DNA of 64,000 bases from Diabrotica undecimpunctata (Eukaryota; Arthropoda; Insecta; Coleoptera; Chrysomelidae). Each line of letters opens with the position of its first letter. Position 1 is the first letter of the stretch. The stretch covers positions 65,059,427 to 65,123,426 of the forward strand of contig NC_092803.1 of assembly GCF_040954645.1 (NCBI RefSeq), written 5' to 3'. The position numbers and the translations under genes were made by a program. Positions 18,931 through 64,000 of this stretch are shown here, piece after piece. Under the pieces are notes generated by a model that saw only the letters and a program-made list of their open reading frames with translations, did no database searches and was not told the origin of the DNA.

Positions 18931-19200
18931 TCAAGTTAGTAATCTGTGATATAGTATTGTTCTTGGTATCTGATTTAAGTAACAGGTGGTATATTCGACG
19001 ATGCTGATGAATCTGTCGTAGGACATGGAACAACAACCTCTAATACGGTCCCAGTTGATCTCTATTGATGTCAAACATATTCCTAGATGAACATTGCTGA
19101 ATAAGGATACAACGTCAAGGCTAACGAGGACATAATTTGATGGAAGTATGTAGCCATTATATTTATTTACCATCTCAAAAGAATCTTTAATGTAATATTG
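18931..19200 (-). pseudogene. PLE RT, internally deleted copy
   Basis: The first ~65 codons match the plus copy, including motif A (SLDVVSLFSNV). At SIVE the frame jumps to the last codons of the element, read out of frame (YTTCYLNQIPRT...), because about 1.1 kb covering RT motifs B and C and the GIY-YIG nuclease is missing. The junction has a short A/T microhomology. Noncoding remnant. Confidence 0.85.
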
Positions 19201-20649
19201 TATATATATATATATATACAAGTATATAATCAATATTACATTAAAGATTCTTTTGAGATGGTAAATAAATATAATGGCTACATACTTCCATCAAATTATG
19301 TCCTCGTTAGCCTTGACGTTGTATCCTTATTCAGCAATGTTTATCTAGGAATATGTTTGACATCAATAGAGATCAACTGGGACCGTATTAGAGGTTGTTG
19401 TTCCATGTCCTACGACAGATTCATCAGCATCGTCGAATTTCTCTTTAACAACACTTACTTCTCATTTAATGATAAATTCTATCAACAAACTTTCGGTACC
19501 CCTATGGGAGCTAAGATTTCTCCTATCATTGCAACTTACGTTATGGATTATGTATTAGACTCAGTCATTTCTTTACTATCCTTTAATATTCCATTTATTA
19601 AAAAATATGTTGATGATATCATTTTGGCTATACCCAATGACAAGGTAGATGAACTATTAGACACTTTTAATGGTTATGACCCCTACATCCAGTTCACTAT
19701 AGAGAGGGAAGATGGTAATTGGTCCGTCCCCTTTCTCGACATAAGGATGATCAGGGAAACCAACAACATCAAAATAGATTGGTATCAAAAACCGACCCAT
19801 TCTGGTAGATACCTTAACTACAACTCATACCATAATAATTCTACCAAAGTCAACTTAATCAAACAGATGAAAAATAGAGTAACAAAACTATCAGATCCTT
19901 TATTTCATACAAAAAACCTACAAATCCTACAGAAACTTTTTATTTCAAACGCTTATCCAACACCATTAGTTAATAAGATTTTGTTTAATACTATCCATGA
20001 CGAAGATATTTCACCTTCCTTCGCGACTAACAATGCTGATCCTGATGTCTTAAGTGGGAACCTAGTCTCGGATACTCCTATAAACAAATATTTTTCATTA
20101 CCATATTTCAGAGATATCACTCCGGGGTTAACAAGGATTCTGAAAAGTGTTGAAAATAGCTTTGGCAATAATAATAACAACATTAAACTTAATGTAGCTT
20201 GTAGATCAGCCCTAACAATTAATAAACTTTATTCTAAGATAAAAGATAAGACTCCCATAGATAGGCTTAGTAATATTGTCTACAACATTCCATGTCTCTC
20301 TTGCAACAATTCCTACATCGGTCAAACATCTCAATTATTGAAATCACGTATTACAATACACAAAAGTGATTCTCGACTTCACCCTGACCGTTGTGCATTA
20401 GCCAAACATGTCCATTCCACTGGTCATCTCATGGACTATACTAACACCACAATTCTCCACCGTGAGAACAATAAATCTAAAAGAGAGTTCATTGAAATGT
20501 CTTATATTTTCCTTAACGATTTCTCCATTAATGTTAAGAGTGACATCAAGAATCTAAGCGATATATACCACCTGTTACTTAAATCAGATACCAAGAACAA
20601 TACTATATCACAGATTACTAACTTGACTGATATATCCATTAACAACTAA
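19198..20649 (+). CDS. Penelope-like RT with GIY-YIG endonuclease (5'-truncated)
   Basis: A 483-codon open frame. It has RT motif A SLDVVSLFSNV (residues 38-48), motif B GTPMGAKISP (100-109) and motif C YVDD (137-140), then a linker with a Cys pair (PCLSCNN, 366/369) leading into the GIY-YIG core (VYNIP...SYIGQTS, 361-378; R384) and the C-terminal HKSD...H...H region. Penelope-like proteins are normally about 700-900 residues, so the N-terminal RT fingers are missing where the palindrome centre cuts the element. The first ~8 codons are TA-repeat and not genuine. RT copies the element RNA and GIY-YIG nicks the target. Confidence 0.92.
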   Translation: MYIYIYIQVYNQYYIKDSFEMVNKYNGYILPSNYVLVSLDVVSLFSNVYLGICLTSIEINWDRIRGCCSMSYDRFISIVEFLFNNTYFSFNDKFYQQTFGTPMGAKISPIIATYVMDYVLDSVISLLSFNIPFIKKYVDDIILAIPNDKVDELLDTFNGYDPYIQFTIEREDGNWSVPFLDIRMIRETNNIKIDWYQKPTHSGRYLNYNSYHNNSTKVNLIKQMKNRVTKLSDPLFHTKNLQILQKLFISNAYPTPLVNKILFNTIHDEDISPSFATNNADPDVLSGNLVSDTPINKYFSLPYFRDITPGLTRILKSVENSFGNNNNNIKLNVACRSALTINKLYSKIKDKTPIDRLSNIVYNIPCLSCNNSYIGQTSQLLKSRITIHKSDSRLHPDRCALAKHVHSTGHLMDYTNTTILHRENNKSKREFIEMSYIFLNDFSINVKSDIKNLSDIYHLLLKSDTKNNTISQITNLTDISINN

Positions 20650-26129: not shown

Positions 26130-27034
26130 TTAATTTTCGTAAGACAGAATGTAATTATAGATATTGCTTAGTTTATCAATATCAGTTTTTTTATTAACGC
26201 ATTGATATTTATTTATGCATACCATTTCTAAGAATTCTCTTTTATTTAATTGGTTTTCGCGTCTTAATATATTAGTTTCATTGAAATTAAATGAATGATT
26301 TTTATTAATTGCATGATCTATTAATGCACACGTATTTTTATTATTTCTAAGGTCACTTTTATGTGATGTTAGTCTGCCTATTAAATTTCTAGATGTGTGT
26401 CCGATGTATGACTTATCACAATTTTCGCATGGTATTATATAAACTACATTTGAGCTTTCCATAATGCTAATAGGTGATTTAGTTTTTGTATACAATGATG
26501 CTAATGTTTTAACATTTTTAGTTGCAATTTTAATATCAGAATAGTTAGCAAAGACTTTAGTTAGTTTGGGTGTTAATGTTGGTATGTAAGGTAGTGATGT
26601 GAAAGTAAATTGAGATTGCACGATTTGTTGATTTGGTTCTCTTGTTTGATTCATGTCAATCATTCTATTATTAGGATTATTAAATAAAAATTTGTTAATT
26701 ATTTTAATTGGGTACGAATTCTCTAATAAAATGTCTTTAAGTTCTAATAACCCTTTGTTGATGTTATTGATGTGTGATAATTTGACTATTCTGTTTTTTA
26801 AAGCCAATATCAAATTTATTTTCATATGAGGTGGATGTTGTGAATGATAATTAATAAATCTGTTACTAAATATAGGTTTTCTGTACCATTCAGTGCTTAA
26901 TACATTTTGTGCATTACGTTTGATTTTTATGTCAAGATATGGGATGCTATTTTCTATCTCTTTTTCACATGTAAATTGTAAATGTTCACTATAATTATTA
27001 AAAGTTTGTAAAGTTTCAAATTTATCAAACGATT
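26130..27034 (-). pseudogene. Penelope-like protein: RT palm end, linker, GIY-YIG
   Basis: A continuous minus-strand frame of about 300 codons; no ATG occurs before 26825, but the frame is open to 27034. It begins right after RT motif C (ETLQTFNNYSEHLQFTCE), continues with SIPYLDIKIKR and WYRKPIFSNRFINYHSQHPP, then the linker with a Cys pair (PCENCDKS) and the GIY-YIG core (VVYIIP...SYIGHTSRNLIGRL), HKSD and a REFLEMVCI segment. The nuclease half is intact, but the catalytic RT residues lie on the other strand, so no functional protein can be made. Confidence 0.85.
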
Positions 27035-27036
27035 TG

Positions 27037-27115
27037 TAGATGACTTAATACTTGCTTTACCTGCAGACAAAATAAATGAAACTCTTTTTACGAATATAGT
27101 TAACAACAGTGCTAT
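27037..27115 (+). pseudogene. Inverted PLE 5' piece carrying RT motif C
   Basis: Plus-strand RFVDDLILALPADKINETLF corresponds to the Y/FVDD motif and following strand of the same PLE. It overlaps by a few residues (DK.ETL) with the start of the minus-strand part, as expected for a 5'-inversion junction. Confidence 0.75.
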
Positions 27116-58196: not shown

Positions 58197-58589
58197 TGTT
58201 GTGAATTTATTAAAAGGTTCAATATTTATAACACTTACGGATTTAATTTATTTCTTTATTTATATTAACTTATCTGACAATAATTTATTATATCCGTACG
58301 TAACAAATTCGCGAGCGCGGGTCTTGAGAATTAACTAACTGTTTTCAAAATAAAAGTTCCCTCATATTTATACGAAAACAGCTGCTCTAGAATCACATGG
58401 ATGTTGACCTCAATTGACCTGGTTTCGCCTCGAATGGACAGGTCTAATTCCGGAAGATTCGAATGGAACCAGTTTTTTATTACTTGGAGTTTATACCAGC
58501 TGGTCGAAAGGTCTCGTATAATCTACAACATATTAGTGATTAAAAACTTGTTTACAGGTTAAAATTATGACTCATATTTTTACGTAACA
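58197..58589 (-). repeat. Gypsy 3' LTR
   Basis: Read on the minus strand, it begins TGTTACG directly after the polypurine tract and ends CACAACA, with the usual TG..CA boundaries (393 bp). Inside are a TATAAATATGAGG TATA-like box (about 58368-58380) and AATAAA polyadenylation signals toward the end. The right boundary is firm. The left boundary was chosen for its TGT...ACA symmetry and could be off by a few bases, since the 5' LTR is not available for comparison. Confidence 0.7.
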
Positions 58590-60930
58590 TTGCCCCCCTC
58601 TCAAAAGATGGTTCCTCCTGGAACCTTGTCGGGACTAGAACTGGAACGGTATGCTGGTATCGGCAACTGGACCCTCTTTTACAACTTCCAGTTGTATAAA
58701 AATGACAAGGGACGGTTTTCTCTCCGCACCAGTAACTACGCGGATTGCAACAGACTAACACCTGGACTTCGGTGTCTTTAAAGATCTCCTCCACCATATT
58801 TCGGATAACCCTCCAATCTAATTGGCGGCACTCCAACTTTGGCATGGCTAACTTTTGCACGTCGGACTCTAGTACGTGCTCTCTCAGTTGAAGTAAGGCT
58901 TCCCATACATCTCGGTAGGTAGGTTGGTCACGGGCAGTGTCTTTTGTTACCAGGTAGAAAAGGTAACGTGATGCATCTTGGAGTTTCAAGGTTTTACCGG
59001 GAGTTGGCACCTGGCATTGAAGTTCTGCAACTCGACCAAACTTCCTTCGAAAGACGGATGCCAACCCTGGTGCGTCTTTGATACTGGCCGGGATGGTAAG
59101 GGCCAGCGAGTAGTCATCGGGGAGCGCGAGTAGATCTTGCTTTTCTTCAGTGGTAACACCATGTCTCGCTTTACCGGTACCTCCATAGGCACCCATGAAT
59201 TCCTCAAACGTGAGGTCAGACACATCTTGGACTTGGTTTACTTCCACTTCTTCATCTACGTCGTGGTCACCTTCGAAAGACGCCAGCCGGTTATGGTGTA
59301 CTATCATCGGCTTTCCCCTCGGAATCTTGCTTATTCGGTAGATGACATCGTTGATCTTCTCCATGATGAGGTATGGACCTTCCCAAAACTGCTGCAATTT
59401 GGGAGAACAACCTTTTCGCTTCTTGGGATTATAGAGCCAGACCTTGTCGTTCTTTTTAAAGCAACCCTTTTCGGCTTGTGTATCGTACCGTTTCTTCATT
59501 CGGTCGCTAGCGATCTGAAGGTGGGAACGGACCAATTCATGTACATCGTCCATTCTTCTTCGTAATTCGATCACATAATCTTCACCTGCTACATCTTCTC
59601 CAGGTCGACATCCAAACTCGAGATCACAAGGTAGTCGCATTTCGCGTCCGAATAGGACTTTGGCTGGTGTCTGGCCTGTTGATTCGTTAACAGCAGATCT
59701 GTAGGCCATCGTGAAGAATGGAAGGTATTGGTCCCAGTCTCGCTGATGATCGGACACCATCTTTGTCAAATACTTGCCAACTGTCCTATTCATTCGTTCT
59801 ACCATACCATCCGATTGCGGATGATACGCGGTAGTTCTTGTTTTCTTCATGCCTAGTCTATCACATATTCCTTGGAATAGATCGCTTTCGAAGTTCCTGC
59901 CTTGGTCACTATGGATCTCCAAAGGCACTCCAAATCGGCTGATATATTCTTGGATCAACTTATCTGCAACGGTGGCGGCCTTCTGGTCTGGAAGTGCGTA
60001 AATCTCGACCCACTTAGTAAAGTAATCCATTACTACCAGCATGTACTTGCCTCCATTTTCACTTTCTGGAAATGGCCCAGCGATATCCAAAGCTATTCTT
60101 TCAAACGGGCTTCCAACGTTATATTGTCTCATAGGAGCTCTCCTTTTTCGGTAAGGCCCGTTACTCGTAGCACAAATAGTACATTTCTTACACCAGTCTT
60201 TTACGTCGTCGGAACTGTTCATCCAATAAAACCGTTCCCGAATTCGCTGAAGGGTTTTCTTTACACCAAAATGCCCTCCCGATGGACTGTCGTGTAACTG
60301 ACGAAGTACTTCGGCTATTCTGCTCTTTGGGATCACCAACTGTCTTCTCTTCTCTAAACCGTCATCATTTTTCAGGACTCGTTTGAGCAAGCCACCTTCG
60401 ATGATAAATGAGTCCCACTGGGCCCAATACGTCTTAACTACTGAGCATAGGTTTGATATTTCCTGCCAAGGTGGTCGACGGTTTTCCTCTTTCCATTTTC
60501 GGATTTTCTGTATAACTGGATCTCTCTCTTGTTCTTCCCTTATCTTAGTAGGCGTCCAGTCGTCGTTGACAATCGTCGTTCTTAGCACTGCTGCTTCCTT
60601 GGATTCCGTTTTGTTGCAGTGGGAACACTCTGCTGGGCATGGCCTTCTGGAAAGAGTATCAGCGTTTCTATGGCTAACTCCGGCCCGGTGCTCAATCTTA
60701 AAATCGTATTTTTGGAGTCGTTCGATCCACCTGGCTATCTGACCCTCTGGATTCTTAAACTGCATCAACCACTTAAGGGCGGCATGGTCGGTTCGGATTA
60801 GAAACTTTCTGCCATAGAGGTATTGATAGAAGTGCTCTACTGATTTCATTACTGCCAGAAGTTCTCTTCTCGTGACTTGAACTCTCTTGAATCTGAGACA
60901 GCACTCCTCCAATTCCCACATTACTTGCAT
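58552..60930 (-). CDS. pol: Gypsy pol part 2: RNase H end, integrase, macro domain, CCCH finger
   Basis: 792-codon open frame. Residues 19-96: C-terminal RNase H (TRRELLAV, RTDHAALKW, HRNADTLSR). Residues 213-253: integrase H2C2 finger (H213, H220, C250, C253). Integrase catalytic triad D282, D342, E378 with the D-x35-E spacing; GPY motif 518-520. Residues about 599-730 then resemble an OARD1/TARG1-like macro domain (DDYSLALTIPAS, PGLASVFRRKFGRVAELQ, YLFYLVTKDTARDQPTYRDV, KLAMPKLECRQLDW). Residues 742-760 form a CCCH finger (C742-x7-C750-x5-C756-x3-H760). The frame passes through the polypurine tract and stops 12 codons inside the LTR. The first ~16 codons are out-of-frame RNase H, not a real start. 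Confidence 0.93.
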   Translation of the reverse strand: MQVMWELEECCLRFKRVQVTRRELLAVMKSVEHFYQYLYGRKFLIRTDHAALKWLMQFKNPEGQIARWIERLQKYDFKIEHRAGVSHRNADTLSRRPCPAECSHCNKTESKEAAVLRTTIVNDDWTPTKIREEQERDPVIQKIRKWKEENRRPPWQEISNLCSVVKTYWAQWDSFIIEGGLLKRVLKNDDGLEKRRQLVIPKSRIAEVLRQLHDSPSGGHFGVKKTLQRIRERFYWMNSSDDVKDWCKKCTICATSNGPYRKRRAPMRQYNVGSPFERIALDIAGPFPESENGGKYMLVVMDYFTKWVEIYALPDQKAATVADKLIQEYISRFGVPLEIHSDQGRNFESDLFQGICDRLGMKKTRTTAYHPQSDGMVERMNRTVGKYLTKMVSDHQRDWDQYLPFFTMAYRSAVNESTGQTPAKVLFGREMRLPCDLEFGCRPGEDVAGEDYVIELRRRMDDVHELVRSHLQIASDRMKKRYDTQAEKGCFKKNDKVWLYNPKKRKGCSPKLQQFWEGPYLIMEKINDVIYRISKIPRGKPMIVHHNRLASFEGDHDVDEEVEVNQVQDVSDLTFEEFMGAYGGTGKARHGVTTEEKQDLLALPDDYSLALTIPASIKDAPGLASVFRRKFGRVAELQCQVPTPGKTLKLQDASRYLFYLVTKDTARDQPTYRDVWEALLQLREHVLESDVQKLAMPKLECRQLDWRVIRNMVEEIFKDTEVQVLVCCNPRSYWCGEKTVPCHFYTTGSCKRGSSCRYQHTVPVLVPTRFQEEPSFERGAMLRKNMSHNFNL
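58590..58603 (-). promoter_or_regulatory. Polypurine tract of the Gypsy element
   Basis: Minus strand GAGAGGGGGGCAA immediately precedes the TGTTACG start of the LTR. In LTR retrotransposons this RNase H-resistant purine run primes plus-strand DNA synthesis. Confidence 0.8.
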
Positions 60931-62757
60931 CCGTATCTAAGATGAACTCTCCTTCTGGCAGTGGATACCCCAAAATTGGTGCTGTTATTAAATGCTTTTT
61001 CAACGTTTCAAAGGCATTTTGGCAGTCTATATCCCAGCGGTATTCTCTTGCTTCCTCTGTAAGTCGAGTTAATGGCTTAGCGATATCTGCAAACTTCTTA
61101 ATAAACCTCCGGTAGTAAGTACATAGTCCAAGAAAACTTCTCACTTGATGTTTGTCAGTTGGTTTTGGCCATTCCTTAATAGAATCGATTTTTCCCTTAT
61201 CCACGGCCACTCCTTCTTTACTGACTATATGACCCAGATAATTGACTTTACCTTGAAATAGCTGGCACTTCTTGGGGTTTAACATCAATTGGGCAGCTTT
61301 AAGTCGATTAAAAACGTTTTCTAAATTCTTCAGATGTTCTTCGAATGTCTCCCCCAAGACGATTATGTCATCCAAATAAACCAGGCATGTTTTCCAAGAT
61401 AACCCCCTCAACACATTTTCCATAAGCCTCTCAAATGTCGCAGGAGCATTACAGAGTCCAAATGGCATAACGTTGAATTGCCACAATCCAGATCCTGTGG
61501 TGAAGGCTGTCTTTTCTTTATCTACTGGGTCCATTTCTACCTGCCAGTATCCAGACTTCAAATCCAAAGTAGAAAACAATTTACTTCCGGCCAATGTGTC
61601 CAATGTGTCATCGATCCGAGGCAGAGGATAACTATCTTTCTTGGTAACGTTGTTCAGCAAACGGTAATCCACACAGAACCTCGTCATTCCGTCTTTCTTC
61701 TTAACCAGGACCACCGGAGAGACCCATGGGCTCGTAGAAGGTTCTATCACCCCGTCTTTCTTCATTTCCTGAACAATCGTTTCAGCTTCCTCTCTCTTCG
61801 CCTGTGGTAATCGTCGAGCTGTTTGACGAATTGGCTTAGCATTACCAGTATCAATTTTATGCTTAACAACGGTAGTTCTTCCCGTCTTTCCTCCTTTCGG
61901 TACGAAAATATCACGATACTGCCGAAGAAATTCCCTTAATTTCCTTTTCTCCATCTGATTTAGAGACTGTTCTGCAACTGCAACCATTTGGTCGAATTTG
62001 TCGTTGGAATTATCAGATGTTGTCGCCTGACGGATTATGGATGTCACAGGTACACAAGTTCCTACTTTTGTCTCTTTCTTTATGGTCACTGGGTAGTCGT
62101 TGACATTGATAAGTCTCACAGGAATTTCCTTAGCCGAAGTCACCAATTCCTTTCCAATTATGATTCCACGGCCAACCTCATCGTCGTGGTTCCAAGGCTC
62201 CATCATAACAGGTCTCCCTTCGTCCACAAATCCCTGTAGCCGCGCTACTATGATCGTTTCGCTCCTCGCAGGCACGACTGTATCTTCTGTAATGGCTGCT
62301 TGCACAGTGTTGTCATTATGTGGATGAAGAAATACCTCCTCATTGCCAACTTTGATTACCTTATTCTTGAAATCCAATTGGAATCCATGCATATTCATTA
62401 CGTCCATTCCTAATATAACATCCTCTTCGATGTCAGCAACTATAACAGTATGGACGAACTTTTCTGCTCCAATTCCCAATTGTACCTGGATTTCTCCATG
62501 AATGTTGGCATTTTCACCTGTAGCGGTCCGAAGTCGCAACCTCGTTGGTAATAGTTTCTTTCGGCTGTTTATAACTGTCGGGCGTATAATGGTTCTGGTC
62601 GCTCCGGTATCCACCAACAACGTATGCTTTTTACCATTTATGTCTCCATCTACATATACACTATCTTCACGACATTTCAAAGAAGCTATTAGTATGAGAG
62701 GGTCTTTGGAAAAGTTCTGGGTCGAAGCTGCCCCCCTAAGGCTGACCCGTTCTAGTT
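60773..62757 (-). pseudogene. pol: Gypsy pol part 1: protease, reverse transcriptase, start of RNase H (truncated by frameshift)
   Basis: Counting from the TTG at 62680: aspartic protease with DTG (24-26) and the ILGMD motif (89-93); RT with STLDLKSGYWQV (motif A, D373), VMPFGLCNAPATFERLM (motif B) and YLDD (435-438); thumb/connection SFLGLCTYYRRFI; RNase H start ILDTDASNVGIGGVLSQIQ (580-598). The frame then shifts and ends after about 37 foreign residues at 60773. It is open upstream of the TTG to the gag overlap, in the -1 frame relative to gag, so pol is normally made by frameshift readthrough. A deletion of about 20 codons plus a shift in RNase H kills the polyprotein. Confidence 0.92.
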
Positions 62758-64000
62758 TTCCTGATTGTGAGTTTCTTGATTTGCGTCGTACCTAGGGTGC
62801 TTACAGGAGCTTCGTACGTGTCCTATTTCGCCACAATTCCAGCATCTGATGGTCTTCGTTTTCTTGTATGTCATGCTTTTTATCATATTAACGAGCTGGT
62901 CAAGTTTATCTTCATCTCCTTCCTCTTTTACAGTCCTAACTTTACTGTAACCGCCAGAGGCCTGCGTAGCTGACTCATATTCGAGGGCGGCGGATAAGAC
63001 ATCAACCAGCGTCTTGTGACGAGCTAATCGTAGTGTTCTCTGCATTTCATGATCACGAAGACCATCAATAAACGTTTGAACGGCCAATTTTTCCATCATG
63101 TCTTCGGGAGCTGTTGGATAAGCATATCGTACTAATCTGGCAATATCTACCTCATATTCTTGAAGAGCCTCATCTTTCTTCTGTCTACGATTTTTAAGCT
63201 GTGACTGATATACATGCTCCAAATGTTCGTGGCCATATCGCATATTTAACCTCTTCTTCAGTTGTTCGAAATCATCGGTCTCCTCTACGGCTATGGTCTG
63301 AAGCACATCTAAGGCATCTCCTCGAAGAGCGATAGTCAGGTTTACAGCCTTTTCTTTTTCAGACCATCCATTCGCTCTTGCAGCTGATTCGAACTGTTTC
63401 ATGTAGTTATTCCATGACGATTTTCCGTCGAAAGTTGGGACTTTCACATGGACAGAACCTCCACTTCCTTCAAATTTCGGCCGTATTTCCAACTTACATT
63501 TCGTCTCGTCTTCTTTTGTCTCCACTGTAATTGGATTGTTTCCTCTCTCTGCTGTCCCGGTTTCGTCCATCTTCCTTTCTATCTCTTTAATCTTTTCTTC
63601 GAAGGCCGACATATCGGCAGCAACTTGGTTTTTTAATGAAGACACTCTATCGTCAAGAGCAGACATCTCAGAAGTGACTTTAGAGATGTTAGCAGAAACT
63701 TTACTTTCCAGAGAAGAAATCTCGTTAGAAACTTTGTTTTCTAATGAGGCGATGTCGCCGGAAACTTTCGAAATATCGCCAGAAACTTTGTTCTCTAATG
63801 ATGCGATGTCACCGGAAACTTTGTTCTCTAATGATGCGATGTCACCAGAAACTTTCGAAATATCGCCAGAAACTTTGTTCTCTAATGATGCGATGTCACC
63901 AGAAACTTTCGAAATCGACGAGAGGACAGCATCTTCAAATATATAAGTCTCTGGATCTAGACCTTCTTCTAGCAAAGCGTTCTTTAGTCGTTGGACTAAC
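62752..64000 (-). CDS. gag: Gypsy gag with tandem-repeat coiled coil and CCHC knuckle (5' partial)
   Basis: Open from the window edge to TAG at 62752-62754; the apparent start at 63975 is a TTG, and the same frame continues upstream (LVQRLKNALLEEGLDPETYI), so the true start lies outside. After about 20 residues comes a long coiled coil made of 11- and 7-residue repeats (KVSGDIASLEN, KVSGDIS). Then follow a charged linker, a capsid-like region (VKVPTFDGKSSWNNYMKQFE, LTIALRGDALDVLQTIA) and a nucleocapsid knuckle CWNCGEIGHVRSSC (C-x2-C-x4-H-x4-C). Capsid assembles the particle; the knuckle binds RNA. Confidence 0.92.
   Translation of the reverse strand, partial: LVQRLKNALLEEGLDPETYIFEDAVLSSISKVSGDIASLENKVSGDISKVSGDIASLENKVSGDIASLENKVSGDISKVSGDIASLENKVSNEISSLESKVSANISKVTSEMSALDDRVSSLKNQVAADMSAFEEKIKEIERKMDETGTAERGNNPITVETKEDETKCKLEIRPKFEGSGGSVHVKVPTFDGKSSWNNYMKQFESAARANGWSEKEKAVNLTIALRGDALDVLQTIAVEETDDFEQLKKRLNMRYGHEHLEHVYQSQLKNRRQKKDEALQEYEVDIARLVRYAYPTAPEDMMEKLAVQTFIDGLRDHEMQRTLRLARHKTLVDVLSAALEYESATQASGGYSKVRTVKEEGDEDKLDQLVNMIKSMTYKKTKTIRCWNCGEIGHVRSSCKHPRYDANQETHNQEN

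Follow-up and report, generated by a model that had tools for sequence, protein, structure and literature searches.

Does a Ty3/Gypsy retrotransposon of a chrysomelid beetle carry a macro domain behind its integrase and, if so, what might such a domain do there? The question is raised by a 64,000-nucleotide stretch of the Diabrotica undecimpunctata genome (contig NC_092803.1, positions 65,059,427 to 65,123,426), referred to here as the window, in which a sequence-only reading had proposed a fusion of this kind. Accessory integrase domains are uncommon and may offer a clue to the way in which an element locates its target, and chromodomains are thought to play a tethering role in other Ty3/Gypsy elements. 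We describe the element, its copies and relatives, the state of its catalytic residues and the selection acting on its domains, and weigh the functions that these data allow.

Structure of the element in the window

A TG...CA LTR pair, a short target duplication and a polypurine tract identify the element as an LTR retrotransposon (Table 1). Pfam matches on the minus strand occur in the order gag/CCHC, protease, reverse transcriptase, RNase H, integrase H2C2, rve and p58-type C-terminal domain, which is the protease - reverse transcriptase - RNase H - integrase arrangement, with integrase last, of Ty3/Gypsy elements. The partner LTR was located by blastn just beyond the window end (64165-64557, in locus L009), and the element is flanked by the 4-base target duplication CTAT; a primer site was also read. 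Since the two 393-base LTRs differ at one site (1/393), the insertion is young. Pol of the window copy is split across two frames near 60773-60936.

Table 1. Features of the element, in window positions.
Feature	Position	Strand	Evidence
3' LTR (TG...CA)	58197..58589	(-)	blastn and edge reading
Polypurine tract GAGAGGGGGGCAA	58590..58602	(-)	read from sequence
CCCH zinc finger, C-x7-C-x5-C-x3-H, directly after macro domain	58651..58719	(-)	PF00642, E 9.9e-7
OARD1/TARG1-type macro domain, ORF residues 588-728	58753..59175	(-)	
Linker, integrase C-terminal domain to macro domain	59176..59280	(-)	alignment
Integrase C-terminal domain, Integrase_p58_C	59281..59379	(-)	Pfam PF22938, E 3.2e-13
GPY motif within integrase C-terminal domain	59371-59379	(-)	
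Integrase core (rve)	59818..60105	(-)	Pfam PF00665, E 8.2e-14
Integrase H2C2 zinc-binding domain	60160..60333	(-)	Pfam PF17921, E 1.5e-21
RNase H, C-terminal part, downstream pol frame	60706..60885	(-)	Pfam PF17917, E 7.7e-17
Reverse transcriptase	61223..61705	(-)	Pfam PF00078, E 1.9e-38
Aspartyl protease	62393..62653	(-)	Pfam PF13975, E 3.5e-11
gag, extends beyond window	62752..64000	(-)	Pfam Retrotrans_gag, 8.7e-8
gag CCHC knuckle	62797-62847	(-)	zf-CCHC, 1.7e-4

Several further aspects of the coding region were observed. In the window copy gag and pol overlap (62752-62791) in frames one base apart, and frames of at least 1700 aa occur at 27 of 150 places of the window's family, termed family A, as if gag and pol were in one frame. 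In the window form the pol frame extends across the polypurine tract and on into the 3' LTR (58555-58602; 1431-aa frames); many other family A copies have 1422-aa frames with a one-base gap near the pol end (L061-L090). Gag, which starts at about window position 64086 when read with locus L009, has at its N-terminus a SAP domain (PF02037, E 5.5e-8) that straddles the window end and is followed by tandem coiled-coil-like repeats; SAP is a DNA- or chromatin-binding motif. Elsewhere in the window, the frames at 19141-20649 and 26130-27044 resemble, by eye, Penelope-type elements with a GIY-YIG-like end.

A macro domain and a CCCH zinc finger follow the integrase

The domain that follows the integrase is an OARD1/TARG1-type macro domain. 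Homology to this type has an E value of 2.2e-22 and the structural matches return an alpha/beta macro fold, as the sequence-only reading had anticipated; together these two results rule out a chance resemblance. With the general Pfam macro profile (PF01661) the window tail has no match at E<=1, and scores of 12.5 bits in the Aromia relative P0003 and 13.2 bits in a second family, B, lie below the gathering cut-off of 22.

The zinc finger is of the CPSF4/RBM22 kind and exceeds the gathering cut-off of its profile in the window (PF00642, 29 bits against 20.5). Its motif is found in 57/57 family A loci and 25/29 family B loci, and in an alignment it is present in the rows for the window (A), P0002-P0005, family B and P0009. 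Pfam matches of the window tail at E<=1 do not include a chromodomain, the mark of a chromovirus.

Among known systems, one of the closest is OARD1/TARG1 (C6orf130), an ADP-ribose glycohydrolase (4j5q, 4j5r, 4j5s, 2eee). Viral macro domains, those of alphavirus nsP3 and others, share the fold and form a second tier of structural matches, and the macro domain of bacterial DarG is alike in fold with an HMM match below cut-off. However, the former belong to viruses and the latter to a toxin-antitoxin system, whereas the beetle domain belongs to a retroelement.

Two families in one genome and relatives in other beetles

Searching of the 1.74 Gb host genome established that the tail is present in all 150 scored places (out of 6109 first-look candidates) at 97-100% identity, with a frame of at least 1400 aa at 80 of these 150 family A places. 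When the same genome was searched with human OARD1, 4800 candidates arose, of which 150 were scored as matches. The best of them, L029, is a single frame with an intact TARG1 pattern and is taken to be the host's own OARD1-like gene. It is an uninterrupted 760-aa frame (L060:3733-6015) in which a long basic low-complexity N-terminal part precedes a canonical TARG1 domain; no Pfam domains were found in this frame, and a LINE-like reverse transcriptase frame adjoins it by eye. From the same search a second retroelement family, B, was recognized at 29 loci (L030-L058), its status being confirmed for these 29 of the 149 non-host matches; when one of them (L040) was read through, it gave integrase, macro domain and CCCH finger in that order.

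Protein searches extended the family beyond this genome. They returned P0002 (70%), an element of the longhorn beetle Aromia moschata (P0003, 39%), the further relatives P0004 and P0005, P0006 and P0007 from Diabrotica virgifera, and P0009, a D. virgifera member of family B (86%); two scans of IMG/VR confirmed no relatives. The integrase-macro architecture is thus common to two families of one genome and to other beetles, and a private chimera is ruled out by the 150/150 scored places, by family B and by P0002, P0003 and P0009. The proposed fusion of a macro domain to the end of a Ty3/Gypsy pol is accordingly confirmed by sequence, by fold and by many copies.

Two of the D. virgifera entries are composite or misnamed. 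P0006, entered as 'ADP-ribose glycohydrolase OARD1-like', carries the retroelement linker and is therefore a piece of the retroelement family; annotators should be warned that this 'OARD1-like' entry belongs to a retroelement. In P0007 the start of the retroelement tail is joined, by eye, to an unrelated transposase-like part. Additionally, three family A places (G000:C1:103055236, 103072785 and 103090344) lie on one strand at spacings of 17,549 and 17,559 bases, which suggests a tandem segmental duplication around the element.

The macro domain was probably acquired once

The linker upstream of the macro domain, FxEFM...(K/S)AR-GV...DL, is recognizable in both families and in the Aromia element; a junction shared by several copies is what the sequence-only reading had named as part of decisive support. 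In a macro domain tree of 9 rows, two of them long branches (Aromia and human), the seven retroelement domains group apart from host L029 and human OARD1 with support of 98/97; the Aromia row is without the last helix and strand, probably through a cut in the gene model. In a 5-row integrase tree the two A sequences pair with each other, and so do the two B sequences. These results support acquisition of the macro domain once, before families A and B and the Aromia element split. Capture of a host gene, as originally suggested, is supported with respect to its OARD1/TARG1 type and its sharing by two families and the longhorn element; the donor gene, however, cannot be named, because the seven retroelement domains compared are only 37-40% identical to L029 and 31-39% identical to human OARD1.

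Both families have lost part of the catalytic pair

Catalysis in human TARG1 relies on nucleophilic attack on the ribose by Lys84, and the resulting intermediate is resolved by Asp125 (PMC9967889, PMC6397177). The GxG loop holds the pyrophosphate, Asp20 and Leu21 are residues of the adenosine side, and the strict TARG1 pattern is given as TKx(30,35)Px[IL]GxGxD (PMC6397177). Lys84 is kept in 57/57 family A loci, the window included, and the window copy also keeps Thr83. The family A loop reads ECRQLDW in all 57 loci (56 distinct places), the GxGLD loop being two residues shorter and Asp125 gone; the window region reads PKLECRQLDW, with neither GxGxD nor Asp125. This loss is old, since the GxGxD loop is also missing in P0002, P0004, P0005 and P0006. 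In family B, Arg replaces Lys84 in 29/29 loci and Asp125 is kept in 28/29, and the D. virgifera member P0009 has Arg at Lys84 and Glu at Asp125. Judged from the aligned residues, neither family of this genome has the complete TARG1 catalytic pair, and the change responsible differs between them. Loss of the GxGxD loop in family A and replacement of Lys84 by Arg in family B distinguish the beetle domain from OARD1/TARG1, as does its fusion to the integrase of a retrotransposon and to a CCCH finger.

The Aromia element keeps both Lys84 and Asp125 and fails the strict TARG1 pattern because Ala occupies the first Gly of the loop; this type may still hydrolyse ADP-ribose. Hydrolysis is also possible for family B if Arg can serve, and the substitution is no proof of inactivity since a Streptomyces macrodomain is reported to work with Gln at the Lys84 place (PMC9967889). 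On the ligand side, Asp20, Leu21 and Thr83 are invariant in a 13-row alignment. The TARG1 residues Phe22, His32 and Ser35 are replaced in the window copy by Leu, Leu and Pro.

These residues bear directly on the suggestion that the element uses the domain to counter PARP-based defence. A counter-defence hydrolase would strip host ADP-ribose from Gag-Pol, chromatin or the ends of element DNA and thereby undo silencing or a block to integration. Such a role would suit the TARG1-like ancestry of the domain and the Aromia copy with its retained pair, and ADP-ribosylation has been connected with control of mobile elements: SIRT6 is described as silencing L1 by modifying KAP1 (PMC4695847), and in parp-1 null flies five of eight significantly changed mobile elements rose, as did ten more, nine of them of the gypsy superfamily, with weaker statistics, although the authors allow an indirect effect of PARP-1 loss (PMC7712786). 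However, family A is without Asp125 and its loop in 56/56 places, family B is without Lys84 in 29/29 loci with P0009 having Glu at Asp125 as well, a TARG1 D125A mutant is reported to be inactive on DNA (PMC5725667), and of 87 loci scanned for the strict TARG1 pattern only host L029 has it; it is absent from all of P0001-P0009, including the Aromia protein. Counter-defence by reversal of ADP-ribosylation consequently fits badly, and we regard it as unlikely; for the window copy itself, the lost Asp125 loop and failure of the strict pattern disfavour an active TARG1-type hydrolase.

Evidence for purifying selection on the macro domain

Nonsynonymous (N) and synonymous (S) changes were counted separately for shared variants, defined as those carried by at least two loci, which mostly passed through active elements, and for singletons, which are mostly post-insertion changes; codons with two or three changes were excluded. 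The family A sample comprised 30 loci (L061-L090; 28 distinct rows) and the family B sample 29 loci, several of which cover just part of the piece. Both samples were ranked by distant queries, which makes them less biased yet non-random. An earlier count of 26 S and 16 N distinct substitutions over 20 rows was not relied on, because its copies were ranked by protein score and the count is thereby biased against N changes.

Shared variants of the family A macro domain comprised 5 N and 14 S (omega-like 0.13, p 1.8e-5), as against 23 N and 7 S among singletons (1.15, p 0.84); the corresponding integrase counts were 5 N/29 S (0.05) and 31 N/15 S (0.65). Shared variants of the family B macro domain comprised 18 N and 19 S (0.32, p 8.6e-4) and its singletons, at 35 N and 28 S (0.42, p 0.0011), are below neutral; the integrase of this family gave 10 N/21 S (0.16) for shared variants and 79 N/40 S (0.65) for singletons. 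Since macro domain singletons are also below neutral, the family B copies are either a biased or a young sample, which makes the test on their shared variants less strong. Family A is therefore the cleaner test, and its contrast between shared variants and singletons is unrepeated in family B. These data support maintenance of the macro domain under purifying selection, though less tightly than the integrase, as indicated by the N/S counts and by A/B identities of 43% for the macro domain versus 67% for the integrase.

The zinc finger behaves differently. Its shared variants number 3 N and 3 S in family A, and the CCCH and end piece of family B shows no sign of constraint (16 N/3 S, omega-like 1.8, p 0.44). 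This bears on an alternative in which the macro domain and the finger together have RNA or cDNA as their ligand, at the stage of packaging, reverse transcription or integration, and ADP-ribose has no role. A CPSF4/RBM22-kind finger placed directly after the macro domain, with its motif in both families and their relatives, would agree with this, as would the presence of a macro domain-RNA complex (3gpq) among the PDB matches. We nevertheless think it improbable, as Gag already has a CCHC knuckle, the finger's shared variants lack clear constraint, and RNA binding alone would not predict invariance of the adenosine-side residues and Thr83.

A once useful capture that is now merely carried would account for the loss of catalytic residues in both families and for the faster divergence of the macro domain relative to the integrase, but such decay is very improbable given constrained shared variants in both families alongside neutral-looking family A singletons, loop loss in A-like rows that have 58-75% of the macro domain in common with the window even so, and open frames of at least 1400 aa at more than half of the scored places.

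A proposed ADP-ribose reader on the integrase

The explanation that we favour, tentatively, is that the domain is a non-hydrolytic ADP-ribose reader that tethers integrase to ADP-ribosylated targets. A chromatin tether for integrase was the other function suggested by the sequence-only reading. Binding instead of hydrolysis is argued for by the constrained fold, the largely kept adenosine side and the two different losses from the catalytic pair. In a pol that ends protease - reverse transcriptase - RNase H - integrase - macro domain - CCCH zinc finger, the captured macro domain would no longer hydrolyse but bind. Its ligand may be ADP-ribose, poly-ADP-ribose or another, related nucleotide, and by this contact integrase or Gag-Pol would be kept at proteins or DNA that carry ADP-ribose, such as PARP-marked chromatin, with the CCCH finger presumably adding a nucleic-acid contact. 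The macro domain would thus fill the role attributed to chromodomains, and a chromatin or DNA tether is its likeliest role because it occupies the end of the integrase, the place of the chromodomain in other Ty3/Gypsy elements. Loss of the loop in family A may weaken ADP-ribose binding too, and the replacements at Phe22, His32 and Ser35 in the window copy likewise count against this reading. A more specific version, in which the captured hydrolase became a pseudo-enzyme reader that directs integration to, or licenses it at, PARylated chromatin or DNA ends bearing ADP-ribose, is conceivable and is put forward with greater reserve.

Parts of this arrangement have precedents. Chromovirus-type Ty3/Gypsy elements are described as having an accessory domain after integrase (PMC3605345, PMC2864245), but theirs is a chromodomain, whereas the beetle element carries a macro domain and a CCCH finger instead. 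A captured cellular enzyme domain is likewise reported for Ty3/Gypsy elements of orchids, in this case an AlkB-type m6A demethylase (PMC9289625); there, however, it occupies a separate frame and is active as a demethylase in vitro, whereas in the beetle it lies inside pol with catalytic residues lost. TARG1-like homologues, few of them with all catalytic residues, have been surveyed in viral genomes, in a report whose main text does not contain the word 'transposon' (PMC4245714). In the main text of a review on the accessory domains of retrotransposon polyproteins, 'macro' occurs only within 'macrophage' and 'ADP' does not occur at all (PMC6338049), and PMC8195603 treats bacterial macro domains and metazoan TRADD-N genes fused to retrotransposons. 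Viral macro domains and Ty3/Gypsy elements with a chromodomain or AlkB are therefore known; of a macro domain in an LTR retrotransposon we found no report in the open-access literature, subscription papers being mostly outside this scope.

Through its macro domain a retrotransposon would be connected with ADP-ribosylation, which has been linked to retrotransposon control in flies and mammals. Two lineages with different lesions in one and the same enzyme, whose fold both have kept, constitute a natural test of reader versus eraser. If the reader interpretation is true, these beetle elements would read a host chromatin signal in a manner new to retroelements.
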